A stretch of 37,132 nt of DNA from a bacterium (GCA_018653315.1 JABIAL010000015.1:1-37132); one strand, 5' to 3'; counted from the stretch's first letter, positions 538 to 16,299 are shown. Numbers and translations: made by a program. The notes: generated by a model not told the origin, from the sequence alone.

Positions 538-1863
538 TTACGGGCCAGCTGATGCTCCTTGTGATTGTAATGCCCAAATTTCTTCATCAGATAATTTACG
601 ATTATATATCCTTAGCTCATCTATGGTTCCATCAAAATAATTACCTGGCACGTCAGCAGACATACCAATCATCATGTCTGTATTATAATTAACTAAGTTT
701 TCACGAATAGTATCATAAGTTGTAGTACCAACACCACCTACACCCTCTTCATAAACATACATTTTAATTACTCCATTATCCCGATCAAATGTACAAGCTG
801 TATGATATGTCTTACCCATGGTCATAACATAAGTATCATTAGGACCAGTACAACCAACGTCATCACAAACACGACAATAAAATTTACTAGCTTGCAACCA
901 AGTAGTATAACCAGTTTTATTACTCCAATTATGTTTATGTGTAATAATATCCGCGCCAGTTGCTGACTCTGGCTCCACCCAAGCAGTAATGGTAAAAGAA
1001 CCATTAATATTCAAGCCATCCTCGTTACCTACGTCACATCTGTCAGAACCATCTTGTTCAAAATGAAAAGCACCATCAGAGCCATTGACTAGTCCTGCTA
1101 CTGCATCTGGAGCGGCAGTAGAACAATCACCATCATAACCACTAATACTATCAATCATATTAGAACTTGGAGTGGCGTCATCCATTTTCCACCAAGCTAA
1201 TAGTCCATCTGAAGTTTGATTACGTAAAGTGGCTGTAGAAGTGGCTGTAGAAGTGGCTGCTAATTCTATCTGACTATTAGCTAGATTAGTCATGCTTAGT
1301 ACCGTGGTGACATTCATAAAACTACTAAAAGTAGAACTAGCTGTGGAAGTAGAAAATATTAGACCACTACTTGCCACATTTATTTCTGGTGAGCTTAAAT
1401 AATAAATATTACCAGCCGTAGCAGAACAAGCCTCGTACTGACCATTATTGGTAATATTTGGGTAACAAGTCATTTTAATCCGACCACTATCAGTAGTAAT
1501 TTTTATACCGCCACCATTTTCCACACAAGTGCCTGGTAAATAAGTATCATCGGAAAAATATAAAGCCAAAGTAGTACTGGTCATGCAATGAGCATCTACA
1601 TCTTTAAGTAAACCGTCAGAATTACGAGATAAATAATCGATCATGCTCAAAGATAATCTTCTACCTTGAGAAACATTTAGATTAGCCGTCAGTTTACTAG
1701 TTGTTCCGCCTAAAATTAAACTAAAATTAATTACCGCTACTAATAAAATACCAACAATAGCTAAATATAAAATAACTTCTACCAAACTAAAGCCCGCATT
1801 ACTTTTATTATTGACAAAATAATACTTAAAGAGAGTTAACTTTTTATATAAATTTATCATCAA
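538..1863 (-). CDS. Prepilin-like protein with C-terminal LamG/concanavalin A-like domain
   Basis: Type III signal NAGFSLVEVILYLAIVGILL (G-1, F+1, E+5); C-terminal DGLLAWWKMDD...FTITAWVEPES...GTIDELRIYNRKLSDEEI is LamG-like. Confidence 0.85.
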   Translation of the reverse strand: MMINLYKKLTLFKYYFVNNKSNAGFSLVEVILYLAIVGILLVAVINFSLILGGTTSKLTANLNVSQGRRLSLSMIDYLSRNSDGLLKDVDAHCMTSTTLALYFSDDTYLPGTCVENGGGIKITTDSGRIKMTCYPNITNNGQYEACSATAGNIYYLSSPEINVASSGLIFSTSTASSTFSSFMNVTTVLSMTNLANSQIELAATSTATSTATLRNQTSDGLLAWWKMDDATPSSNMIDSISGYDGDCSTAAPDAVAGLVNGSDGAFHFEQDGSDRCDVGNEDGLNINGSFTITAWVEPESATGADIITHKHNWSNKTGYTTWLQASKFYCRVCDDVGCTGPNDTYVMTMGKTYHTACTFDRDNGVIKMYVYEEGVGGVGTTTYDTIRENLVNYNTDMMIGMSADVPGNYFDGTIDELRIYNRKLSDEEIWALQSQGASAGP

Positions 1864-3908
1864 CGATAATTTAATTTAAATGAATAAAGTGTAGGCGTAT
1901 CTGCATTACTATCACAAGCATCCATATCTACTGTATAACGCAACCAACGCTCTCCTTGCATGTCAGTATTTACTTCTTCTGTAAAAACACTAGTGGTGCT
2001 ACTAAAAGCTTGACTAGTAGCTGAACCAAAATTTATATCATCATCCGCTTCCAATGTAATATCAATATCACAACCAGATGGAATATCTTGCGAAATAGTC
2101 ACACTATGTAATTCTTGATCTGTTGACCCGATATCTAACTTTGAAGAAACCAAACTACCAGATGCTGCATAAACTCCTGGAGAAGCTATTTCTTCTTGAT
2201 CAACGAAGGCTGAAAAACGGGTAGCAGAATCATCAAAAGTAATACCACCAAGAATTGCTCCATATTGTTTAGCGCTATAAGCCATCGGATGATAATAAAT
2301 AGAATAAGTACCATAAGTCTCATGATCAGCAAGATCAATGGATAATGATGGACTAGCGCCTGTGGTCACTCCAGAAATCGTAAACATGGTTATTCTAGGA
2401 GCAATGACAGAAACATAGGCCATTACAATAGCCTCATCATTACCGGTATAAGCAACATCTTTAGGATAAATAGTCCCCGTACTCTCAGCACTAAGATCAG
2501 CTCCGGCTACCTTGACAAACTCTGACTCGCTAATATCATCATCTATAATCTGAAATTCATCAGCGCCAGTATCTGAAATAATAATAAAACGATTATCACC
2601 ATCTCCATTGGTGCCAATGTACTTAATATCTGTCATATCATAACTATTAGCATAGCTATAATCTGTCGTTAAAGCAGTCTTACTAGAAACATCTATTCTA
2701 CTCAACGCATAAGTAGAATCATCACTAACAATATATAATGCATCTTCACTATCATCCAGCCAAACTGCATTAACATTAGAAGTCTTAGCCATTGACTGAG
2801 GAATGCCAGATTTACAATTCTGACAAGTCAATGTGCCATCTGCCGCAATAGCCAAGCTCCAAACACTTCCAAGACTACCCACAGCATACATATGAGTGCC
2901 ATCATCTTGAATAGCAAAACCATAAATAGTACCTGCACCTTTAGTTGTAGAATAACTCTGAAGCACTGCAAAAGTACTAGTGCTAACTGTCTTTATTTGG
3001 CCCTCAGTACCACCAACATAATAATGTGGATAAACCGAATTTAATCCTGAGCCATACTGATAAAATCCAACGGCAAGAGAACTTTGACTACCAAAGCCAT
3101 TTGTACGAATATCTGTAATATCATAACGATACGCATTAGAAGAATAAGCACCAAGATAAAATTGATCATTATCATCATCAATTAATGCTGAGAAAGAATA
3201 TACAGCCAAAGTAGTTGAAGCTATATCAGCAACATCATCAGGCCAGAGCCAGGCTAAAGATCCCGGAATATAAGCTAATGTTAAATCACCAATCACAGAA
3301 GTACCATCTACACTAGATGTTGTATAAGCTTTGTTTTCATAAGACCAAAACTCAGTACCAACACCACCGGACCAATCTGTCTGCTCCCAAACCCGATTTG
3401 ACCATGAAGTCAAATAGCTATTCAATACATAATCACTTATTCCTGAACCAGAAACTGTGACTGTCACTTTTTTAGTCAAAGGATCTTCTGCGCCAGCTCC
3501 TTCTGTAATATTGCCATCAGTATCACGCGATACTACGCTAAGTGTGATAACCCTAGTTAAATCACCTAGAGTATTTTCACTACCAGAAAATTCCCATATT
3601 TCATTAGCATCTTTAGCAATGCCTAAATTTGAACCAACATTATCTTCCATGTATTGCCAAGAATTTTCTCTAATAGATCGAACAGCTTCTAAGCCTTCTT
3701 GAGCAAATTCGGCAATTGATTGTTTATCGCCTACACCATAAAAATTTGTGTATGAACTTGTCACTACATAAAGAACACCGCTTGCTAAAATTGCAAAAAT
3801 AGCAATAGCAACAATCAGTTCTATTAAACTAAACCCCGCACCACTTTTAAATTTTTTAAAGTGGTGCTGGGTAAATCCTGCTTGATTTTTATATTTTAAA
3901 AATTTCAT
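1860..3908 (-). CDS. Giant prepilin-like protein with beta-propeller-like extension
   Basis: GAGFSLIELIVAIAIFAILASGVLYVV prepilin motif, then about 600 aa of beta-rich repeats (FAIQDDGTHMYAVGS, VNAVWLDDSEDALYIVSDD) and a C-terminal GERWLRYTVDMDA...TPTLYSFKLNYR segment. Confidence 0.8.
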   Translation of the reverse strand: MKFLKYKNQAGFTQHHFKKFKSGAGFSLIELIVAIAIFAILASGVLYVVTSSYTNFYGVGDKQSIAEFAQEGLEAVRSIRENSWQYMEDNVGSNLGIAKDANEIWEFSGSENTLGDLTRVITLSVVSRDTDGNITEGAGAEDPLTKKVTVTVSGSGISDYVLNSYLTSWSNRVWEQTDWSGGVGTEFWSYENKAYTTSSVDGTSVIGDLTLAYIPGSLAWLWPDDVADIASTTLAVYSFSALIDDDNDQFYLGAYSSNAYRYDITDIRTNGFGSQSSLAVGFYQYGSGLNSVYPHYYVGGTEGQIKTVSTSTFAVLQSYSTTKGAGTIYGFAIQDDGTHMYAVGSLGSVWSLAIAADGTLTCQNCKSGIPQSMAKTSNVNAVWLDDSEDALYIVSDDSTYALSRIDVSSKTALTTDYSYANSYDMTDIKYIGTNGDGDNRFIIISDTGADEFQIIDDDISESEFVKVAGADLSAESTGTIYPKDVAYTGNDEAIVMAYVSVIAPRITMFTISGVTTGASPSLSIDLADHETYGTYSIYYHPMAYSAKQYGAILGGITFDDSATRFSAFVDQEEIASPGVYAASGSLVSSKLDIGSTDQELHSVTISQDIPSGCDIDITLEADDDINFGSATSQAFSSTTSVFTEEVNTDMQGERWLRYTVDMDACDSNADTPTLYSFKLNYR

Positions 3909-3918
3909 AAAAAATTAT

Positions 3919-5454
3919 TTAAGGACTAACAGCATCACCAATAGTATAAAAAGTTGAAGTGCTAAATTGATTATTATATTCTGTTGTAATCCAATCAGCG
4001 CTTCTTGCTGCATTTGAAATACGAATTTCATCTAACCTGCCATCCATCCACTCCGAGCCTTGAAGATAACCGACTACAAAATTGGAAGCATCCAAAATAT
4101 CCCCTGTAGTCAGAGTTTCTGGGCTATTAGTTGTTTCTGAACCAGCGATATAAACACGTAAATTATCACTATCAAAGTTACAAACCAAATAGTACCAAGT
4201 GTCATCTGCCGGATCTTCAGTGCTATAGTTAATAGACCGCCATTCATCAGGATCTGGGTCCATATCCTCGCGCACATAACAAAGTGTTGGCCGTAATTGA
4301 ATATTATTAAATGAAACGACATGTTGACTAGAATCTACTGCATCATGACTCACCCAAGCTGAAAGGGTAAAACCATTCTCTGCTGTACCTATTGGATTAT
4401 TACTGACGAAATCAAATTTGGCAGCTGAGCCATTAAAATTAATCGTATAGCCAATCTGTCCGTCAACTAAATCTCCAGAACTAAAAGTACCGACAGCAGT
4501 ACCATCATGATCATTATCTGTGCTATCGATAATTTGCGGAGCATCACCACTTGGATCTTCATTCATATGTTGCACCATTTGATAATTACTATCCCAAACT
4601 TCAGTTATTCTTTCTTGAGAAGAAGCAATGTCCGGATTACCATAAAATACATGAATCACAGTATTTTCGCCTGTCTTTAATTCTGGTATTTTTACCCAAG
4701 CTATCAACTCTCCAGTAGTTGAAGAATATTTTTCTATCTCATATGGTAATACATGATTACCATTTATATCTGAAGCAAAAAGAATATCATATCCATTATC
4801 ATTTTCTATATTTCCGCCATGAGTAATTGTTTTAAAATAATCATTCGACTCTCCCAATAAAAAAGGAAAGTTAGCTAAACTTGTTGAACCGCTCACTTTT
4901 GTATTATCTACAGCAATGGAACGACGATAATTATAACCATTAGTTCCCTGGTAAATTAATCCCAAAGCATTAACATTAATCATCGTGTCATTACCATAAT
5001 TATTTTTTAAACGAATCATTTGCCCGGTTAACGATCCAGTGGTTGTGCTCAGCCAACCAGAAGTTTTAGCAAAATAAAATTCTGTCTCCTGATCGGCATC
5101 AAAATATGCTCCAGTGTCAAGCAGTAATGTTTCATCATAACCCGTACTACGATTAATATAACTTGTGCCTTTATATAAAATCATACAATCTCCACTTGCT
5201 CCATCACTATAACAATCTGTGCTGTCATCTAATATTTTTATACCCCAATTATCTCCATAATAACCAGTTACTGCATAATTGCGTGCTCTATTTAATAAAT
5301 CAACTATCGACAAAGCCTTAGCTCTTAAATCTTCTTTTACTGTTCTGTTTGATACTAAGCCAACCACAGAAGATAAAATCATTACAAAAATGGCTACTAC
5401 TATAATTATTTCTATCAAAGAAACTCCATCTTGTTTTTTAAGTTTAGCTAACAT
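3919..5454 (-). CDS. GspH/FimT-like prepilin fused to DUF2341-like and LamG-like domains
   Basis: DGVSLIEIIIVVAIFVMILSSVVGLV then LLNRARNYAVTG (FimT/GspH style); YRRSIAVDNTKVSGSTSLANFPFLL...AWVKIPELKTGENTVIHVFYGNPDI (DUF2341-like); FTLSAWVSHD...RLDEIRISNAARSADWI (LamG). Confidence 0.83.
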   Translation of the reverse strand: MLAKLKKQDGVSLIEIIIVVAIFVMILSSVVGLVSNRTVKEDLRAKALSIVDLLNRARNYAVTGYYGDNWGIKILDDSTDCYSDGASGDCMILYKGTSYINRSTGYDETLLLDTGAYFDADQETEFYFAKTSGWLSTTTGSLTGQMIRLKNNYGNDTMINVNALGLIYQGTNGYNYRRSIAVDNTKVSGSTSLANFPFLLGESNDYFKTITHGGNIENDNGYDILFASDINGNHVLPYEIEKYSSTTGELIAWVKIPELKTGENTVIHVFYGNPDIASSQERITEVWDSNYQMVQHMNEDPSGDAPQIIDSTDNDHDGTAVGTFSSGDLVDGQIGYTINFNGSAAKFDFVSNNPIGTAENGFTLSAWVSHDAVDSSQHVVSFNNIQLRPTLCYVREDMDPDPDEWRSINYSTEDPADDTWYYLVCNFDSDNLRVYIAGSETTNSPETLTTGDILDASNFVVGYLQGSEWMDGRLDEIRISNAARSADWITTEYNNQFSTSTFYTIGDAVSP

Positions 5455-6659
5455 TAACGACCAACTTTACTGGTTAATTCATAAATTGGATTGATAATTG
5501 ACATAGCAACAAAACCAACTACTAAACCAATAGTTACTAACAATGCTGGCTCTAACATGGTAGATAAATTTTTAGTGGTCTCATCAACTTCAGTCTCATA
5601 AAAATCTGCTAAATATTCTAGTGTTTCGGACAATGTACCAGATCGCTCACCTACTTTGCCCATGCGAGAAATTAAAATTGGAAAATGCTTATCTTTAGCT
5701 ACTATTTCTGAAAAAGAGGTTCCTTTTAATAATTGATGATAAATAATAGTAATTCTTTTTTTGTAAACATCATTAGTTACTGTATCAGCTGTAATCCGTA
5801 AGGCCTGATCAATTGTAATACCACTATCTAATAGTGAAGCTAGGGATCTACAAAAAATAGCTAGATTCATATTTCTACTGATCTTGCTAAAAATGGGTAA
5901 TTTCAAAATTATCTGATGTAAAACAAAACGTGTACCACCAAAACGAGCCATCACTTTAATAGCAATGATAAATAATATTATGCCACCAAAAAATTGGGGC
6001 CAATAACTTACAAAAAAATCTGAACCTGCCATTAAAATTTTAGTGGAAAGTGGCAATGTAGCATTTAGGGTAGTAAAAAATCCTAATAATTTAGGTAAGA
6101 CGAATACTGAGATTACTACCAATAAACCTAAAATAGCAAAAAATACTACACTTGGATAAAGCATAGCCGCTTTAATTTTACTACGTAAGGTATAATTTTT
6201 TGATTGCTGTATGGCAACAATCTCTAAATTCTTTTCTAAACGACCACTAGCCTCACCAGCCGCTATCATATTAACAAACATATTATCAAAAACACGTGGA
6301 TATTTTTTCAAAGCAGCTGACAATGGATTACCTTGTTTAATATGAACAGACACTTTTTTTAGCAATCTCGCCATAGCATTTGAACTTTGTTGGGTTAATG
6401 TATCCAAGGCTTCATCAAGTGGCATGCCAGCTTTTATCATCACTGATAAATGCTTAGCAAAAACCATTTTATCTAATAATTTCACCCGGCCAATGGCAAT
6501 ATCCATGTGTAAACTAATTTTTTTCTTAGCGGGCTCCATTTTCAAGACATTGGCGCCTTTTGCACTCAATTTAGTACGAGCAGCAGCTAAATTAGTTGCC
6601 TCAATCCTTCCTTTGACTACTTTGCCCTTTTGATTAACAATTTGATAAGCAAATAACAT
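5454..6659 (-). CDS. pilC: Type IV pilus inner membrane platform protein PilC/GspF
   Basis: Duplicated T2SS_F architecture: FAKHLSVMIKAGMPLDEALDTL and FCRSLASLLDSGITIDQALRI, three TM helices, C-terminal SMLEPALLVTIGLVVGFVAMSIINPIYEL. Confidence 0.95.
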   Translation of the reverse strand: MLFAYQIVNQKGKVVKGRIEATNLAAARTKLSAKGANVLKMEPAKKKISLHMDIAIGRVKLLDKMVFAKHLSVMIKAGMPLDEALDTLTQQSSNAMARLLKKVSVHIKQGNPLSAALKKYPRVFDNMFVNMIAAGEASGRLEKNLEIVAIQQSKNYTLRSKIKAAMLYPSVVFFAILGLLVVISVFVLPKLLGFFTTLNATLPLSTKILMAGSDFFVSYWPQFFGGIILFIIAIKVMARFGGTRFVLHQIILKLPIFSKISRNMNLAIFCRSLASLLDSGITIDQALRITADTVTNDVYKKRITIIYHQLLKGTSFSEIVAKDKHFPILISRMGKVGERSGTLSETLEYLADFYETEVDETTKNLSTMLEPALLVTIGLVVGFVAMSIINPIYELTSKVGR

Positions 6660-6692
6660 ACAAATAATTTATTTTAAAAACCTTTTTTAAAT

Positions 6693-8378
6693 CTATTGAC
6701 GAGTAACACGTAATATTTCTTCTAATGTTGTCTGACCAGATACTGCCTTATTAAATCCATCCTCCAACATTGTGATCATACCATTAGCTTGAGCTTGCTC
6801 TTTTATCTTATCTGCGTCTGCATGAGCAGTAATAAGATCACGAATATTGTCATCTACTTCTAAAACTTCAAAAATACCCATCCGACCAGTATAACCAGTG
6901 TTATTACATTTATCACAACCCTTACCTTTATAAAGACGAATATCTTTTAATTTATCTAGATCCAAAAATTTTTCAATAGCAACCATTTTCTTTAGATTGT
7001 CTATTTCTTTATCAGTCAAAGTATAACTAATAATACACTTCAAACAAATACGGCGAATTAAACGCTGAGCAATAATAACATTAACAGTAGAAGCTATTAA
7101 AAATGGCTCAATACTCATATCCAATAAACGAGGTAAAGCAGTAGCCGCATCATTAGTATGCAAAGTAGACAATACCAAATGTCCAGTCATGGCAGAATTA
7201 ACAGCAATACCAGCTGTTTCTTCATCACGAATCTCACCAACCATCATAATATCTGGATCTTGCCGCAAAAGTGATTTTAAGCCCGCAGCAAAAGTCAAAT
7301 TAGTTTTAGAATTAACCTGGATCTGATTAATACCATCCAAATCATACTCAACTGGATCTTCAATAGTGCAGATGTTAACCTCTCGTTTATTAATAATCCT
7401 AATCAAAGCATAAAGACTGGTGGTTTTACCAGAACCAGTTGGACCAGTCACTAACAACATGCCAAATGGTCTCAAAATAGCCCTATTTACTATTTCCATA
7501 TCTCGGCTATTCATTCCTAAATCAGTCAAGTCTAACTGCTGACCCTTGGAGGCCAATAAACGCATAACCACCTTTTCACCTTGCGTAATTGGAACAATAG
7601 AAACACGAATATCCACTTTGTCTCCTTCAACTTTGGTAACAATTTTACCATCTTGAGCACTACGTGTTTCATCAGTTCTTAATTTAGCCAAAATCTTTAA
7701 ACGAGTAACAATTAATTCTAAAATGCTCTTTGGCAAGGTTAAAACATCATGTAAAACTCCATCTATTCTAAAACGAATTTTTACATTTTCAGCTGTTGGC
7801 TCAATGTGAATATCTGAAGCGTGATTGGTGTAAGCATAAGAAAATAAATCATCTACCAAGCGCACAACAGATACATCTTCAGCTCGAGAACCCTGTGCTT
7901 CCACGGCATGCTTTTGGATCGTATTGGCATATTCTTGTTGAATAGCTTTGCGATAAAGTCCGAATGTATTTTTAATATCATGCCCAGTAGCGTAATAAGG
8001 AATCACTTTATCGCCAACTTTTTTCTCCAACATTTTAATCATGTTGTAATCAAAGGGATTATTCATGGCTACTTTTAGACCTTCTGCATCATGACGGAAA
8101 ATAACCATTTTTTGCTTACGAGCAACTATCTCTGGTAATAATTTTAATATTTCTATTTTAATTTGCTCTTTTGCTAAATCAACAAAGCGAACATGAAGAC
8201 TATTAGATATTAACTGACCAACTTCTTTTGATTTAATTAAGTCTTGTTTAATCAAAAAAGTAACAAAATCTTGTTTTTTATCCCTAGCCGTCTTAAGACT
8301 AGCATCCAAAACACCAGGATCTATTAAACCTACCTTACTAATAATATTATGTATTTTTTGATCTGAAATAATTGCCAT
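6693..8378 (-). CDS. pilB: Type IV pilus assembly ATPase PilB/GspE
   Basis: Walker A GPTGSGKTT, Asp box TIEDPVEYDLDGINQIQVN, Walker B region RQDPDIMMVGEIRDEETA, His box TGHLVLSTLHTNDA, tetracysteine CLKC...CDKC. Confidence 0.96.
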   Translation of the reverse strand: MAIISDQKIHNIISKVGLIDPGVLDASLKTARDKKQDFVTFLIKQDLIKSKEVGQLISNSLHVRFVDLAKEQIKIEILKLLPEIVARKQKMVIFRHDAEGLKVAMNNPFDYNMIKMLEKKVGDKVIPYYATGHDIKNTFGLYRKAIQQEYANTIQKHAVEAQGSRAEDVSVVRLVDDLFSYAYTNHASDIHIEPTAENVKIRFRIDGVLHDVLTLPKSILELIVTRLKILAKLRTDETRSAQDGKIVTKVEGDKVDIRVSIVPITQGEKVVMRLLASKGQQLDLTDLGMNSRDMEIVNRAILRPFGMLLVTGPTGSGKTTSLYALIRIINKREVNICTIEDPVEYDLDGINQIQVNSKTNLTFAAGLKSLLRQDPDIMMVGEIRDEETAGIAVNSAMTGHLVLSTLHTNDAATALPRLLDMSIEPFLIASTVNVIIAQRLIRRICLKCIISYTLTDKEIDNLKKMVAIEKFLDLDKLKDIRLYKGKGCDKCNNTGYTGRMGIFEVLEVDDNIRDLITAHADADKIKEQAQANGMITMLEDGFNKAVSGQTTLEEILRVTRQ

Positions 8379-8387
8379 AAAAATTTC

Positions 8388-9059
8388 TTAACTTTCTAAT
8401 TTATATCCACAACTTGGACAAAATTTATAATTATCTTTCAAATGTTTGCCGCAACTTGGACAAAAATTAAACCTTTTTTTATTTTCTGTATCTACTGCAA
8501 CGCGTTCCTTAGGTTCCTGCTTCTTTAAACTTTTTTTCACTATTCCCTTGGCTACTGCTTGTAAAGATTTGGAACTAAAATCTTGTATCGCTTTTTCCCC
8601 TGCTTTTAATATTGTCTCCGTCTTAGCTTCTTTTATAGCCACTTGATGACTTTTAGCTAACACTTCTTTACTATAGGTCTTGGAATTCAAAATATGATTT
8701 ATCTTGTTTATAATAACTCCCAAAGTAGCACTGTCTTTCACTAAATAATCAGCTGCCCCTAAATCAATCCCCTTTTGCCGATCAATTGCTTGACCTAAAT
8801 TAGATAAAATAATTACTGGAATAGCTGCGGTTTTTGGATCATTTTGTAAGGCCGTTAATACTTCAAAACCATTTTTTTTTGGCATAATCATATCCAAAAT
8901 AATCAAATCAGGATCTTCACTATGCGCCTTATCTAAACCATCTTGACCATCTACGGCCAAAACTACATCAAACTTTTGCTCGCTTAATTCTGCGTCATAA
9001 ACTTTACGCAAAAAACTATCATCATCAACAAATAAAATTTTTCTTTTTTCTTCTGGCAT
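8388..9059 (-). CDS. Response regulator receiver protein with C-terminal double zinc ribbon
   Basis: CheY fold KILFVDDDSFLRKVYDAEL...DLIILDMIMPKKNGFEVL...PVIILSN...AADYLVKDSA; C-terminal FCPSCGKHLKDNYKFCPSCGYKLES (two CPSCG motifs). Confidence 0.92.
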   Translation of the reverse strand: MPEEKRKILFVDDDSFLRKVYDAELSEQKFDVVLAVDGQDGLDKAHSEDPDLIILDMIMPKKNGFEVLTALQNDPKTAAIPVIILSNLGQAIDRQKGIDLGAADYLVKDSATLGVIINKINHILNSKTYSKEVLAKSHQVAIKEAKTETILKAGEKAIQDFSSKSLQAVAKGIVKKSLKKQEPKERVAVDTENKKRFNFCPSCGKHLKDNYKFCPSCGYKLES

Positions 9060-9061
9060 AT

Positions 9062-10627
9062 TTAATCAAACAAATAATCAACATTCAAGACCAAAACCGG
9101 ACGACCATCAGCTGCAACGGCCACAAAACTAACTATCTTATTATTTTTCAATACCTTTGGCGTGCGTTTAATAATAATATCCTCTTCTTTGGTTATCTGT
9201 GGTAAGGGTAACAATATTTTTTTATTATCATGTTTTATAATAGCTAAATTTTGTGTAACTATAGATAATTTCTTAATTTCCAACACCTTAGCCAACGATA
9301 TCAGTGAATATTTAATATTTTTATGGACAAAATTTGTTTGTTTATCAAAAACAATTAGTTTTGGTAAACGTATTATTTTTATAACAGAAGCATTGGGCAA
9401 GGCTAAATAAAAATTACCAATTTGAAAAACTAAACTCCGCAAGACAGATACTGGTAATGGCAATAAAATAGTAAAACGAGCACCTTTATTTTTACTACTA
9501 TCGACTACCACACTTCCTCTTAAATCCTTGACTCTTTTTTGTACTAAACTAAGCCCAACTCCTCTACCTCCTCTGATACTTGTAGTGCTACTAGAAGAAA
9601 AATGGCCATCAAAAATCAATTGTTTGATATCTGATAGTTTCATTTCTTTACTTTGAGCGGTGGTTATTATCTTTTTCTTTAAGGCAATAGCTAAAATTTC
9701 CTGCCAATCAATGCCTTGTCCATTATCAGCAACTACTATTTTAACAGAATCATTGACTATTTCTGTCTGCACAATAATTTGACCATCTTTTTGCTTAGTA
9801 GTAATCCCATGTACCATTGCGTTGCGTAATAACTGAACAATAATATCTATCATATCATCCAAGATAGTTTTATCTAGAGACAAACCATTATCCTCAATAA
9901 TCAAATTAACATTTTTCTTCTCTGCTTTAGCTAACTCTCTGACTAAGCGGGGCAAAGGTGAAAAAATTTGAGCCAAAGACATTGTCCTTAATTCTTTAAC
10001 TTCACGACGTAAATCAGCAACTATTCTATCTATCTCTAGACAAGATTTAGTAGAATCAGGATCATGAGATATTAAACATTGCAAATTCATTTTAGCTACA
10101 AAGAGAGAATCAACGATCCTTTGTAGTTTGTCCAGACGATCTGTAGGTACTACTATTTCTAATGGAGTATATAAATCAGAACCAGAATGAGTAATATAGC
10201 TCAAAGAAGCTCTGGCTTGTTTTTTAATTTTAGTTTTTGTCTTAGTTGCGTTATTTTTAATAACTTGTTTTAAACTTTTAATATGAATATCTAAATTAGC
10301 CTCTTTCCCTTGTGAGATGATGTTCTTTATATTCTTGTCTAATACTTGCAAAGTTTTAAATAAAATATCTAGTACTTTCTCACTAAGCTCTAATTCTTTG
10401 TGTAATAAAGCATAAAAAATATCTTCTGCTAGATGTAAAACTTTGACTGTTTTATTGTATTCCATAGTAGCAGCTGCGCCCTTCATAGAATGAGTAATGC
10501 GTAAAATATCTTCAATTAAATAAAGATCTTTTGAATGTTTTTCCCAAGCTAAGAAAAGATTGGACAATTTTTTTAATTGTTCAACACTTGTGTCAATATA
10601 AAAAGTTTTATATTTATTATTTGGCAT
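9062..10627 (-). CDS. cheA: CheA-like histidine kinase (Hpt, dimerization, HATPase_c, CheW-like; no evident P2 domain)
   Basis: Hpt motif ITHSMKGAAATM; N box QLLRNAMVHGI; VVADNGQGID; GRGVGLSLVQ; CheW-like C-terminus FQIGNFYLALPNASVIKIIRLPK. Confidence 0.93.
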   Translation of the reverse strand: MPNNKYKTFYIDTSVEQLKKLSNLFLAWEKHSKDLYLIEDILRITHSMKGAAATMEYNKTVKVLHLAEDIFYALLHKELELSEKVLDILFKTLQVLDKNIKNIISQGKEANLDIHIKSLKQVIKNNATKTKTKIKKQARASLSYITHSGSDLYTPLEIVVPTDRLDKLQRIVDSLFVAKMNLQCLISHDPDSTKSCLEIDRIVADLRREVKELRTMSLAQIFSPLPRLVRELAKAEKKNVNLIIEDNGLSLDKTILDDMIDIIVQLLRNAMVHGITTKQKDGQIIVQTEIVNDSVKIVVADNGQGIDWQEILAIALKKKIITTAQSKEMKLSDIKQLIFDGHFSSSSTTSIRGGRGVGLSLVQKRVKDLRGSVVVDSSKNKGARFTILLPLPVSVLRSLVFQIGNFYLALPNASVIKIIRLPKLIVFDKQTNFVHKNIKYSLISLAKVLEIKKLSIVTQNLAIIKHDNKKILLPLPQITKEEDIIIKRTPKVLKNNKIVSFVAVAADGRPVLVLNVDYLFD

Positions 10628-11030
10628 CCAAATTAATATCCTTTAACACTGGTTTCACCTCTAAAACCTTAATCTTTTTCTTATTAACTAAAATATATTC
10701 TTTCAAAATATCTTGAGTTCTACTCTTATTCAATATTGCGCTCACTATATCTCCAGCTGATTTAATAATCCAGCCATAATAGTGATGGTCAAATTTGACC
10801 ATAGCACACTTTTCATTGCTATTTTTTGTCATTAAAGTAAAAATTTTAGCAGTATCTAATAGAGTTACAAGATGACCATTATGATAAGTAAAACCAATGA
10901 TGCGCTTGTCCATCTGTGGAATAGGTGTGATTTGTCGAATATGAAAAAAATGATAACTACTAGACAAAGGTACAGCGTATTGTTGTCCATCGACATTGAC
11001 TAAAATAAATTTTTGTTTTTTATTAGGCAT
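10617..11030 (-). CDS. cheW: CheW-like coupling protein
   Basis: KFILVNVDGQQYAVPLS...ITPIPQMDKRIIGFTYHNGHLVTLLDTAKIF. Start at MPNKKQK (ATG 11028-11030) preferred to the longer ORF because it follows the upstream stop at 11032. Confidence 0.88.
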   Translation of the reverse strand: MPNKKQKFILVNVDGQQYAVPLSSSYHFFHIRQITPIPQMDKRIIGFTYHNGHLVTLLDTAKIFTLMTKNSNEKCAMVKFDHHYYGWIIKSAGDIVSAILNKSRTQDILKEYILVNKKKIKVLEVKPVLKDINLDAK

Positions 11031-11031
11031 A

Positions 11032-12171
11032 TTATTTTGATCCCAACAAAGATGATAAGCTATCAATCACTCGCTGTAAATTATTAAATGATCGATTTAA
11101 AGTACCAATTGCATAGACCTGTTTTTTTACTGAATTACTTACTTGATTAATATTTTTTGACAAATTCTTGCTATCCTTATCAAGTATAGTAGTAGTACTA
11201 TCGATTTTTTCTATGCTTTGGCGAACATCTTTAGTCTCTTGATCAATAATTTTAATATCTTGACAAATATCTTTAGTTTGTTTACTAATTTTAGTCAAAA
11301 AATTTATAGTCTGTCCAATAGTGGTAATATTTTTATCTGCCGAGCCTTGTTTATTAACCGCTCTTTGCTGGCTTTGTTTTAATTGCCTTTGCATATCTTC
11401 GGTCAATCCTTGAATATTAACAGCTACCTGCTGACCAACAGAATTAAGTTGTCGTATTTGACCTACTAAACTACTAAATTCTTCAGAATCTGCTGTTTTA
11501 TGAGCCTCAACAGCTGTATTTAGACTCAAATAATGAGCCAAATCTGCCATTGATGCTACTCGCTGAGCAATAAACTGTATTTTATCGGTATAAGCATCTA
11601 AGGCCACGTAAAGCTTCTGATTATCAGTAGATAATTGTTTTATCACTACTAGACTATCTAGAGCACTTTGTGATTTATTCTCACTATTTGTGGCCAAATT
11701 ATCTATCATTACTGTGCTTTGAGCTGTTTTGTTTATTTTGTTAGCAATTTGTTTGATAGAACTTTTTATTTCTGTACCAGTCTGATTATTAACCTTAAAA
11801 CCTGTCTGACAACTTTTTATATTTAACGACAATACTTCAATATTCTCTTTGTTATCTTTGTTAATATTGCTGAGATTATTTAAAGATTTTTTAAAAGTTT
11901 TAATAATTTTTCTTATCTCTACGATTTGCTCTTGAACAACACCATGATTAGGTAGGTTGATTTTACGAGCAGCAATAATAGCTAAAATAATAACTGAGGC
12001 TATGGTAAATACAAGCGATAATACAATTTTATCTATAGCTAAATAAAATAAATTTAAATCTTTAGCGATAACTGACCAAAAAATAGCTAATATAATAGCT
12101 GTGGTAAGCAAGGCCACGATTAAAAACCAAGCAATAAAGCGCCAATAAATTTTATTTTTGCTAATATACAT
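11032..12171 (-). CDS. Divergent methyl-accepting chemotaxis protein-like transducer
   Basis: Two N-terminal TM helices with a very short intervening loop, then a long coiled coil with an MCP tip-like segment ASMADLAHYLSLNTAVEAHKTADSEEFSSLVGQIRQL. The ORF-track start at 12192 is TTG; ATG at 12171 preferred. Confidence 0.82.
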   Translation of the reverse strand: MYISKNKIYWRFIAWFLIVALLTTAIILAIFWSVIAKDLNLFYLAIDKIVLSLVFTIASVIILAIIAARKINLPNHGVVQEQIVEIRKIIKTFKKSLNNLSNINKDNKENIEVLSLNIKSCQTGFKVNNQTGTEIKSSIKQIANKINKTAQSTVMIDNLATNSENKSQSALDSLVVIKQLSTDNQKLYVALDAYTDKIQFIAQRVASMADLAHYLSLNTAVEAHKTADSEEFSSLVGQIRQLNSVGQQVAVNIQGLTEDMQRQLKQSQQRAVNKQGSADKNITTIGQTINFLTKISKQTKDICQDIKIIDQETKDVRQSIEKIDSTTTILDKDSKNLSKNINQVSNSVKKQVYAIGTLNRSFNNLQRVIDSLSSLLGSK

Positions 12172-12218: not shown

Positions 12219-12238
12219 CCTGCCTGCCGGCAGGCAGG
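12219..12238. repeat. Perfect 20-bp GC-rich palindrome CCTGCCTGCCGGCAGGCAGG
   Basis: Read directly; equals its own reverse complement; GC-rich in an AT-rich intergenic region. Confidence 0.95.
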
Positions 12239-12271: not shown

Positions 12272-12303
12272 ATAATAAGGTAAGAAAACTCTTACCTTAT
12301 TAT
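12272..12303 (-). terminator. Candidate intrinsic terminator downstream of the 12334-14190 gene
   Basis: 14-bp perfect stem (ATAATAAGGTAAGA / TCTTACCTTATTAT) with a 4-nt loop, about 30 bp past the stop; T-rich on the minus strand after the stem. Confidence 0.65.
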
Positions 12304-12333: not shown

Positions 12334-14190
12334 TTAATTTTCTATAACACTTTGTAATAATTTTAATTTTTCTTCTGTTTCTACAATCTCAGGAAATCGC
12401 AAATAATTATCTTGCAAAAGCTCTAGGGCTATTTGCAGATATTCTTGAGCACGATCTTCATCTAACCAGGACAATTGATAATAAGCTTGAGCTAAATTAT
12501 ATATAACATCCGGACGATAGTCTGGTGTTAACTTAAATATAATATCCTGATAATAACCAATTGCTTTTTCGATATCATCTTGAGACGAATTTAAAGTACC
12601 CAGGGCTAAGTAATTATTAGCTATAAGATAATGTAATTTAGCATTCAGAAGATGCTGTTGACTAGCTTGAGCTGCATAAAATGAAACTAAATTATGGCCA
12701 ATATATTTTTCTTCAAGATTCCAATCATCATTAACTATAGTTTGCATCAAAACTAAACTCATATCTTGTTGGTAAGCTGGTGCAAGTTTAGAAATTTTAT
12801 CGGCACTTTGCACTATTTGCAACATTGATCTATTTTGATCATGATGAATTATTTGAATATTTTTTAATTGCCAATTAGCCAACATCGGCTTATAAAATAA
12901 AAAGAAAGCTAAAATAATAAATAAAATCAAACTTATTATTAAACGTAGATAAGATTTATAAATTTTAAACTTTTGTCCTCGGTGACTAAGATAATAAATA
13001 AAGGCTAGATAAATAAAATAAACCAACAACGATACAATGGTATCAAAATTAAAAAATAAAAAGATAGCATTAGCAAATAAACCCAAACCTAGTAACAGTC
13101 GTATTTGGCTAGCATTGCGTTTTAATTTAATTTTCTTTAAATAAATAAATGGTAAAGCTAAGAATATTAGATAGGCTAAAAATCCAATAACACCACCTTC
13201 AACCAAATAATCTACATACTGATTATGTGCTTTATCAAACCACATTCTGGTACCACTACCTTTATAAATATCTAAATCAAGATATTTATTAAATGGGATA
13301 TCAAAATTATTTCTCCCCCATCCTAAAAATGGCTTATCTTGCCAACCAATAAAACCAGACTGCCATGCTACTAACCTGGTTTCTATAGTGGTATCTGTGA
13401 AACTATAATTGGTAAAACGATTAGATAGATTATTTATGCCAACAAGAATTATTATTATTAACAAAAACGCCAAAGCAATACTTTGCAATCTCTTCTTTTT
13501 CCAAAAATGTATTATAAAATAAACACCACAAATAAATAAAGAAATAGCCAAGCTTAAAAAAGCAGCTCTAGATTGAGTTGCTAAAATAGCTGGTATGCTA
13601 AAAATAGCTATGCTAAAATGGATCGATTTAAAACGGCGATCAAAATAAACCAAAACTAGACTCAAGAAAAAGCTTAATAATAAATAGTGAGCTAAAAAAT
13701 TAGCATTACCAATCAAAGCAAAAACTCTACCTGCTTTTTCATCGGCAAATACTGACCAATTAAACATTTGTCCCCAAGACCAAATAATAGTAGCGAGCAC
13801 TACTAACTGATGAATACGCAAAAATTTCAGCCACTGCTTTTTCTTATTAAAAGCCAAAATAAGACCAAAGAAAAATGGTAACCACCACAAAAAATACAAT
13901 AAACCATCCATCCGCTGCCAATCTCCCCACCAACTTTTGATCGGGTCAGTACTAAATAAATTAATTGCTAAGATAATTATAAAAAACAAAATAATCACCT
14001 GTATAAAACGAGACTTCCAAAAATCTTTCTTAGCTGGCAAATAAAAAATAACCAACGGTAAACTGATTAAAATAAAAAATATCAGCCAAAAATACTTCCC
14101 AGTAATATATGGCTGATAAAAACCTAAATGCAAAAAAATAGGGATAAATAGAGTAAATGTTAATAAATACTGAAAAATCTTCTCCTTCAT
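12334..14190 (-). CDS. O-antigen ligase/Wzy-like polytopic membrane protein with TPR-like C-terminus
   Basis: Multi-TM; ETRLVAWQSGFIGWQDKPFLGWGRNNFDIPFNKY and KAHNQYVDYLVEGGVIGFLAYLIF typical of Wzy_C/WaaL; TPR-like C-terminal helices. Confidence 0.88.
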   Translation of the reverse strand: MKEKIFQYLLTFTLFIPIFLHLGFYQPYITGKYFWLIFFILISLPLVIFYLPAKKDFWKSRFIQVIILFFIIILAINLFSTDPIKSWWGDWQRMDGLLYFLWWLPFFFGLILAFNKKKQWLKFLRIHQLVVLATIIWSWGQMFNWSVFADEKAGRVFALIGNANFLAHYLLLSFFLSLVLVYFDRRFKSIHFSIAIFSIPAILATQSRAAFLSLAISLFICGVYFIIHFWKKKRLQSIALAFLLIIIILVGINNLSNRFTNYSFTDTTIETRLVAWQSGFIGWQDKPFLGWGRNNFDIPFNKYLDLDIYKGSGTRMWFDKAHNQYVDYLVEGGVIGFLAYLIFLALPFIYLKKIKLKRNASQIRLLLGLGLFANAIFLFFNFDTIVSLLVYFIYLAFIYYLSHRGQKFKIYKSYLRLIISLILFIILAFFLFYKPMLANWQLKNIQIIHHDQNRSMLQIVQSADKISKLAPAYQQDMSLVLMQTIVNDDWNLEEKYIGHNLVSFYAAQASQQHLLNAKLHYLIANNYLALGTLNSSQDDIEKAIGYYQDIIFKLTPDYRPDVIYNLAQAYYQLSWLDEDRAQEYLQIALELLQDNYLRFPEIVETEEKLKLLQSVIEN

Positions 14191-14196
14191 AAAAGA

Positions 14197-16299
14197 TTAT
14201 TTAAGATAACTATCTATGACATTAACAATATCAAATAATTCCTGAGTCTGCGCTTGATAAGCTATATTATTTAATCTAGCTATTTCACTATCGTCAAAAG
14301 TCCTATTTATTTTATCCATATTTAATACGGACAAATCATCTAATATATTTGCTAACAAAACTACATCTTTTTCAAAGAAGGCAACTTTCATCAGATTCCA
14401 ATAAACGCCATTAACCCACGGAGATAAATCAACTAGTTCTTGTGCTGTTTTTCTAGCCTCTACTATATTACCTTGTGCTAGATAAGAATCAGTCAAGCTT
14501 AAATAAATATCTGGTCGTTGTGGCGCTAAATTGTGTAACTTTTCTAGTAAAGCTAAATTTTTATCTAGAAAACTTGGATCAAATTGAGCAAAATTATAAT
14601 AAAAATTTGCCAAAAATAAATTAGCACGAACATCTTCTGGATAACGATTAGACACTTCCTCCATGTATACTTTAGTTAAATAAAACACCTTATCCTTAGC
14701 TGGACCAGCCACATCTGGTCTAGAGATAACTCCCATAGCCAAACGATACAGATTATCCACCTTTTCTTTATCGCCAATAAAAGACAACTCCCATGACCTT
14801 TGCCATTTGTCTAGTGCTTGATTCATTTGATTTTCTGTCACAGACATTGAGCTAGTTTTTATCGACTCGACCAACATTAAGTTTGATCTTAATGGTTTAA
14901 CAACGAATAAATTAGTCACAAATAAAAATCCTGCGATACAAAATAAGGCCACTAATTTTTTAGGCACCTGTTTTCTACCCTCAAAAAAATGCCATTCTTT
15001 ATCTCCAACAAATAAAAATCCTAAAATTAAATATAAAATAACATTAGTATTTAAACTATCAAAAATAAATAAATCATGAAACAAAAAGCTCAGTAAAAAA
15101 CTAATCCACAAAAAAGGTATTAACCACTGCTGATCTTTTTTATATTTTCTATACAAACGTCTAATTGAATAAATAAATACGGAAAGATATAAGATCAAAC
15201 CCAATATTCCACTTTGCACAAGATGTTGCATTAAAATATTATGTGGCCGATCAAACCAAATCTCTGAACCCAGAGTATGAAATATCTCAATCGGAAAATA
15301 TTTATTAAAAACATATTGAAAATTTTCTTCCCCCCAGCCTAAAATTGGTTTTTCAGCTACACCAGAAAAACTATTACGCCAAATCATCAAACGAGATTGA
15401 GCAGTGGTATCAGTCAAGGAAATATTAGCCACTTTACCAAGCATCGGCACTTTTTTTACCCAATTACTATCTTGCTGTGCAAATAATAAACTTAAAAATA
15501 ATATACCCGCTATAAAAACAGCTAGAATACCATAATACCAGCGATTTCTCTTTTTTCTTTCAAAATATAAATAAAAAATGCCAAATAAAAATATAAAAAG
15601 TAATAAGCCTAAAAACGCACCTCTGGTATGCGTACTTAATAAAATAAACACAAATAAAATAGAACTAATTATATAAAAAATTCTAATCCATAATTGCTTA
15701 TTATTAACAAATAAATAAGCTAACAAAACTATATGAATCATCATATATGAACCAACATAGGCCGCATTACCTAAAGTAGAAGTTAAGCGAACCCCGCCAG
15801 ATGATTCTATTACAAAATCTAATCCCAATCTTTGACCAACCGCTACTAAGGCTACAAACCAAGCAGATAACAATGAAACATGAAAAAATAGGTGCCAATC
15901 TTTTTTGTTTGGTAACACACCAATTAAAACAACTAAATACAAAATAATATGCAGCCAATTTAATAAGCCGTCCATTCTTTCAAAATTACTCCAGAAACTA
16001 AAACCAAAATTTTGTCCAAATAAACTTGAGATTGTAAAACTTATTACAAAAAATACTAAAAACCAAAAACCTTTATTAAACTTTGGCCTCAAATCTTTAT
16101 GCAACCAAGCTAAATATAGATAAATGAAAAAAATTATCTCGACAATAAACCTAAATAAAAAATTACGAGGAGCAATAAAAGGGAAGTAAAAATCCGACAA
16201 AACTACTAATGGTAAAAATAAAATGAGCCCTAGCCCAATCTTTACAATGATTAATAAATAGTCATTATAATCATTATATTTACGAAAAAAATGTGACAT
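14197..16299 (-). CDS. O-antigen ligase/Wzy-like polytopic membrane protein with TPR-like C-terminus (paralogue of neighbour)
   Basis: QSRLMIWRNSFSGVAEKPILGWGEENFQYVFNKYFP and RPHNILMQHLVQSGILGLILYLSVF; C-terminal RPDIYLSLTDSYLAQGNIVEARKTAQELVDLSP TPR-like. Confidence 0.88.
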   Translation of the reverse strand: MSHFFRKYNDYNDYLLIIVKIGLGLILFLPLVVLSDFYFPFIAPRNFLFRFIVEIIFFIYLYLAWLHKDLRPKFNKGFWFLVFFVISFTISSLFGQNFGFSFWSNFERMDGLLNWLHIILYLVVLIGVLPNKKDWHLFFHVSLLSAWFVALVAVGQRLGLDFVIESSGGVRLTSTLGNAAYVGSYMMIHIVLLAYLFVNNKQLWIRIFYIISSILFVFILLSTHTRGAFLGLLLFIFLFGIFYLYFERKKRNRWYYGILAVFIAGILFLSLLFAQQDSNWVKKVPMLGKVANISLTDTTAQSRLMIWRNSFSGVAEKPILGWGEENFQYVFNKYFPIEIFHTLGSEIWFDRPHNILMQHLVQSGILGLILYLSVFIYSIRRLYRKYKKDQQWLIPFLWISFLLSFLFHDLFIFDSLNTNVILYLILGFLFVGDKEWHFFEGRKQVPKKLVALFCIAGFLFVTNLFVVKPLRSNLMLVESIKTSSMSVTENQMNQALDKWQRSWELSFIGDKEKVDNLYRLAMGVISRPDVAGPAKDKVFYLTKVYMEEVSNRYPEDVRANLFLANFYYNFAQFDPSFLDKNLALLEKLHNLAPQRPDIYLSLTDSYLAQGNIVEARKTAQELVDLSPWVNGVYWNLMKVAFFEKDVVLLANILDDLSVLNMDKINRTFDDSEIARLNNIAYQAQTQELFDIVNVIDSYLK

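Follow-up and report, generated by a model that had tools for sequence, protein, structure and literature searches.

Patescibacteria are believed to find and hold their hosts by means of type IV pili. In the papers searched we found no description of chemosensory or other control of Patescibacteria/CPR pili. The Saccharibacteria pili T4P-1 and T4P-2 resemble the case described here in that there are several pilus loci, one without its own retraction ATPase, and the text of that study contains no mention of CheA or CheY and no "chemo-" words (PMC12206443). In the Pil-Chp system of Pseudomonas aeruginosa, as in our locus, a dedicated receptor, a CheA-type kinase and a CheY-like regulator stand over PilB-driven pili (PMC10519157, PMC12632253), and PilG promotes the recruitment of PilB to the pole (PMC10519157). 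Unlike our locus, Pil-Chp includes PilK and ChpB, a PilJ with three or more likely methylation sites, a pair of regulators and a ChpA with many Hpt domains. We found no counterpart of the PilK/ChpB pair or of the PilJ methylation sites. Instead of two antagonistic regulators (PilG/PilH), the cluster holds one receiver, a second lying in a pilMNO-pilB-pilT-like operon; the connection to a type IV pilus is one of genomic linkage only.

The cyanobacterial Pix/Tax systems (Synechocystis tax1: PixJ1-PixI-PixL-PixG/H) likewise place type IV pili under the control of an MCP, CheW, CheA and CheY-like regulators. Synechocystis has neither CheR nor CheB (PMC4758948), so adaptation enzymes are no strict requirement for a chemosensory system, and its PATAN regulators bind PilB according to the passage of PMC10519157 that cites Han et al. 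2022. Pix/Tax uses two regulators, one with PATAN, and photoreceptor GAF domains in PixJ1, whereas our locus has one receiver, no sensory domain, and PilB, PilC and the pilins in the same row. The cluster receiver gave no Pfam match to PATAN and comprises receiver and zinc ribbon only. In cyanobacteria, type IV pili are already known to be governed by arrays that lack CheR/CheB; the cluster represents a variant. Clusters of other Patescibacteria (e.g. L097, L100, L102) also keep MCP, CheW, CheA and CheY together, but they encode CheB, CheC and CheD, their receptors are canonical and carry methylation motifs, and they lie mostly away from pil genes. A single-receptor, single-regulator, adaptation-free system beside its motor is, to our knowledge, about the smallest chemosensory circuit.

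Gene order and conservation of the cluster

The stretch analyzed (the window, 37,132 nucleotides) is all of contig C35 of a draft genome of 880,741 bases in 39 contigs (96.57% complete). The source genome and two protein-matched relatives (MAGs; L017 = G005:C78, L018 = G017:C1) belong to family f1 of the Patescibacteria. On the minus strand, genes for an MCP, CheW, CheA, a receiver-zinc ribbon protein, PilB, PilC and three prepilins follow one another (Table 1), neighbours being spaced by at most 33 bp or overlapping. The MCP stop and the CheW ATG are 1 bp apart, CheW and CheA overlap by 11 bp, the spacings of CheA/receiver, receiver/PilB and PilB/PilC are 2, 9 and 33 bp, and PilC overlaps the adjoining prepilin by 1 bp. 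The packed MCP-to-prepilin cluster described in the first-pass annotation was correct in coordinates, order and strand, and Pfam identities agreed with it (T2SSE 436.6 for PilB, T2SSF 204.4 for PilC, N_methyl in all three prepilins). Its further claim of a single functional unit gains support from conserved synteny and from a terminator-like hairpin ahead of the MCP.

Table 1. Features of the cluster, with window positions, strand and basis of assignment.
Feature	Position	Strand	Basis
Terminator-like hairpin (14-pair stem, T-rich tail) between upstream Wzy_C gene and MCP	12272..12303	-	
MCP-like receptor	11032..12171	-	Pfam, PDB profile, TM and motif scan, AF2
CheW	10617..11030	-	PF01584, 42.6 bits
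CheA: P1 (phospho-acceptor His46), P3, P4, P5; without P2, without receiver	9062..10627	-	Pfam, alignments, PDB CheA matches
CheY-like receiver (Asp56, Lys108), C4 zinc ribbon at its C terminus; sole output regulator of the cluster	8388..9059	-	Pfam, alignment
PilB extension ATPase (MshEN + T2SSE)	6693..8378	-	Pfam, NCBIfam
PilC inner-membrane platform	5454..6659	-	PF00482, 204.4 bits
Prepilin with DUF2341 and Laminin_G_3 (ConA-like lectin)	3919..5454	-	Pfam
Large prepilin, N-methylation motif	1860..3908	-	PF07963
Prepilin with Laminin_G_3	538..1863	-	Pfam

The unit is probably bounded upstream by the hairpin (12303-12272). Several relatives (L076, L079, L080, L082, L084) have a divergently oriented gene ahead of the MCP, which indicates that the MCP begins the unit. 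Promoter-like sites within the cluster (39, against 38 expected) gave no information either way. Between hairpin and MCP start lies a perfect 20-bp palindrome, CCTGCCTGCCGGCAGGCAGG (12219-12238), present as a single copy in the window. Ahead of the MCP, positions 12334-16299 encode two Wzy_C O-antigen-ligase-like proteins, one of which is kept there in several relatives; they could be candidate pilin O-oligosaccharyltransferases tying the glycan locus to the pilus.

A CheA profile matched 21/36 genomes of the order, mainly those of f1 (18/21) and f2 (2/2). The synteny check across relatives showed the order MCP-CheW-CheA-receiver-PilB-PilC-prepilins to be unbroken wherever the contig was long enough, with G012 as the exception, and the same order recurred in two genomes of the sister family f2; spacings in the conserved loci were mostly <50 bp. 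The shared order across f1 members and two f2 genomes argues that the cluster is not due to chance. Three f1 genomes lacked CheA. Two of these, G006 and G021, also lacked the orthologous PilB (best match 44–47% identity, where the orthologues in G011, G012 and G015 reach 73–78%); G011 retains receiver-PilB on a contig ending just before the expected CheA start. An apparent split of CheA in G013 and G020 was dismissed as an artefact, since both pieces stop at contig ends. In an unrooted CheA tree, the f1 sequences grouped together, separate from f2 and from the systems that carry CheB (support 0.998). Across the phylum, CheW of any kind was found in 18 of 380 evenly sampled genomes. CheA also lies near PilB/PilC, in differing arrangements, in other Patescibacteria (L106:7242-16679 and L112:7534-13106), perhaps as independent links of chemosensory genes to pili.

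Receptor, kinase and adaptation machinery

The cluster encodes the parts by which a chemosensory system is recognized: an MCP signalling domain, CheW, and CheA with P4 and a CheW-like P5. The Pfam score of the MCP, the only one in the source genome, is weak on its own (MCPsignal 34.9 bits vs cut-off 34.6), but a 15-member receptor profile matched solved MCP signalling domains across the whole cytoplasmic part, covering nearly the full cytoplasmic length against T. maritima MCP 2ch7 (E 1.6e-17), which marks it as a true MCP. Hydropathy places two TM helices ~10 residues apart, leaving f1 receptors without an outer domain; the cytoplasmic part following the TM pair is a long coiled-coil hairpin with no ligand-binding domain. 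The AF2 model likewise has two TM helices and then a hairpin turning at residues 223–229, and its mean pLDDT of 65 makes it supportive only. By alignment, the receptor tip retains the SLN..IEA core and the F..LV.QIR.LN return helix, lacks ARAGE.GRGF and, in f1, is shorter by one residue. What is missing includes Arg388, Glu391 and the Gly-Arg-Gly region of Tsr, positions regarded as near universal among MCPs that form arrays; the receptor may therefore be unable to build arrays of the normal kind. Its partners CheW (42 bits here vs 94–127 bits in 14 other Patescibacteria) and CheA P5 are divergent too, and the receptor-CheW-P5 interface may have changed jointly.

The core of the window CheA is complete in P1, P3, P4 and P5 (Pfam Hpt 30.3, HATPase_c 63.9, CheW/P5 31.3; P3 from a match with T. 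maritima CheA that starts at residue 154), and every f1 CheA aligned carries the P1 His46 together with boxes N, G1 and G2. The receiver (Pfam 78.4, zinc ribbon 35.3) keeps its Asp and Lys residues. Its zinc ribbon is restricted to the window, G012 and family f2; most f1 members are without one, and we rejected it as a general part of the regulator. No receiver phosphatase was found within the cluster.

Profile searches of the draft genome (96.57% complete) returned no CheB, and none occurred in the 23 genomes of f1 (21) and f2 (2); CheD was likewise found neither in the source genome nor in any of the 23. Among other Patescibacteria tested, 13/17 had CheB and 13/15 had CheD. CheR had no match in the other f1/f2 genomes. 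Two weak matches in the source genome were rejected, as they cover the methyltransferase core only and belong to generic methyltransferases of ~220–240 aa. We scanned receptors for the published methylation motif in the form quoted in PMC12632253. It occurred 3–8 times per receptor in 11 receptors of other Patescibacteria (shuffled expectation 0.16–0.34), was absent from 15/16 f1 receptors, the window receptor among them, and appeared once in the remaining one (2/16 being cut by contig ends). Judged from the sequences, adaptation enzymes and methylation sites are both missing. The absence of CheB and CheD, the generic nature of the CheR matches, the presence of a single MCP and the loss of motifs support the reduced, non-adapting system proposed in the first-pass annotation, and the genome-wide cheR/cheB search suggested there yielded nothing beyond these two generic enzymes.

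Clusters of other Patescibacteria (L096-L108, L111) encode CheB, CheC and CheD in genomes with no detectable CheR. Of the methylation motifs in their receptors, 44/61 are Gln-Gln, as though deamidation without methylation were the rule.

Retraction ATPases and input variants

The earlier listing of CheR, CheB, CheD and PilT as absent is true of the window, but PilT is encoded elsewhere in the genome, and the retraction ATPase claimed to be missing is thus accounted for. Contig C27 carries a PilT above the family cut-off (TIGR01420 440.7 bits vs 319.1), and C14 a divergent PilT-like protein (score 295) in a pilMNO operon with PilB and a second receiver. A PilT-family match was obtained in 35/36 genomes tested, and a missing PilT was therefore rejected; what remains supported of the first interpretation is a reduced, non-adapting system forming one functional unit. 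PilB, PilC, prepilins, PilM/N/O and PilT are all found in the genome, which has four PilB-type ATPases, making the cluster one of several pilus gene sets. At L013:62-3284, a second PilB with a receiver to itself and a PilT-like protein whose Walker region is altered lie beside PilM/N/O-like genes, the latter assigned by gene order and sequence reading only.

Two genomes, one for each variant, show other genes at the input position. G012, the closest relative at this locus, has no MCP in a genome-wide search and no CheW at the locus, and keeps receiver, PilB, PilC and prepilins. Directly ahead of its receiver and PilB is a mini-CheA (L094:6362-7297), whose open frame of 311 residues holds just Hpt and HATPase; in the alignment P3 and P5 are cleanly lost, leaving P1 and P4. 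Among thousands of CheAs in a published survey, all had P1, P3, P4 and P5 (PMC10782961), which puts the G012 protein outside that definition. In G034 (family f6; PilB 53% identical), a two-TM HAMP-PAS-HisKA-HATPase kinase (L144:1913-3901) precedes the receiver-PilB-PilC-prepilin row. These variants indicate a common core of receiver and pilus genes with varying input. We tentatively suggest, as a possibility somewhat short of even, that receiver-PilB-PilC-pilins form a fixed output cassette into which lineages plug different inputs: a memory-less array whose receptor senses membrane or pilus, a receptor-less soluble P1-P4 mini-CheA, or a HAMP-PAS kinase. If so, ultrasmall bacteria would have in this cassette a modular switch for a single pilus. 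The natural series of full array, mini-CheA and kinase swap opens two questions to direct testing, the contribution of an array and the purpose of adaptation.

Proposed control of the pilus and alternative explanations

The cluster looks functional and conserved, and adds a variant to the chemosensory control of type IV pili. We consider it likely that it is one transcription unit for a dedicated non-adapting chemosensory system of one type IV pilus, signalling from CheA through the receiver to PilB; transcription as a single unit, the formation of arrays, the transfer of phosphate and the choice of PilB as target are inferred. The membrane receptor, with almost no outer domain and linked by CheW, would set the activity of CheA, which would autophosphorylate on P1 and pass the phosphate to the single receiver. 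The receiver would then act on the adjacent PilB motor, or on the PilB/PilC base, turning pilus extension up or down, and retraction would be shared with or supplied by the PilT encoded elsewhere. With no methylation memory, output would track the receptor's present state rather than the way that state changes over time. As the receptor has no ligand domain, its signal may originate in the membrane, the pilus base or the pilins. Cells of f1, a family with very small genomes, thus probably use a memory-less sensor to turn one particular pilus on and off.

The low MCP score, the remodelled receptor tip, the loss of MCP, CheW, P3 and P5 in G012 and the disappearance of the whole locus from G006 and G021 would also fit a chemosensory part that is a decaying remnant, with only receiver and motor still mattering. 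We regard this as distinctly unlikely, given that open frames and catalytic residues are kept in most f1 genera, that gene order is unbroken in nearly all members and that dN/dS is far below 1 (~0.03–0.15 for most MCP and CheA pairs within genera; dS is saturated, so only the direction of this result is safe), consistent with apparent purifying selection on the locus. A functional array could instead address a target other than the pilus motor, the linkage to PilB reflecting co-expression only. Action on PilB is deduced from sequence, and the unusual zinc ribbon could serve a different target; nevertheless, the receiver gene always adjoins pilB in f1 and f2, G012 included, and in f6 together with the sensor kinase, and the presence of the locus tracks that of the orthologous PilB, which makes this alternative unlikely.

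A third alternative is that the system does adapt, through an unrelated methyltransferase or a methylation-independent route. The weak CheR-fold matches of the two generic methyltransferases and the retention of CheB and CheD without detectable CheR in other Patescibacteria leave some room for this, but the receptors no longer carry the target motifs and the methyltransferases sit on contigs other than that of the cluster, so we consider it very unlikely.

At the end of one chemosensory cluster in a Patescibacterium, an H-NOX (haem-NO-binding) protein is encoded (L097:12908-13435; PF07700, 151 bits).
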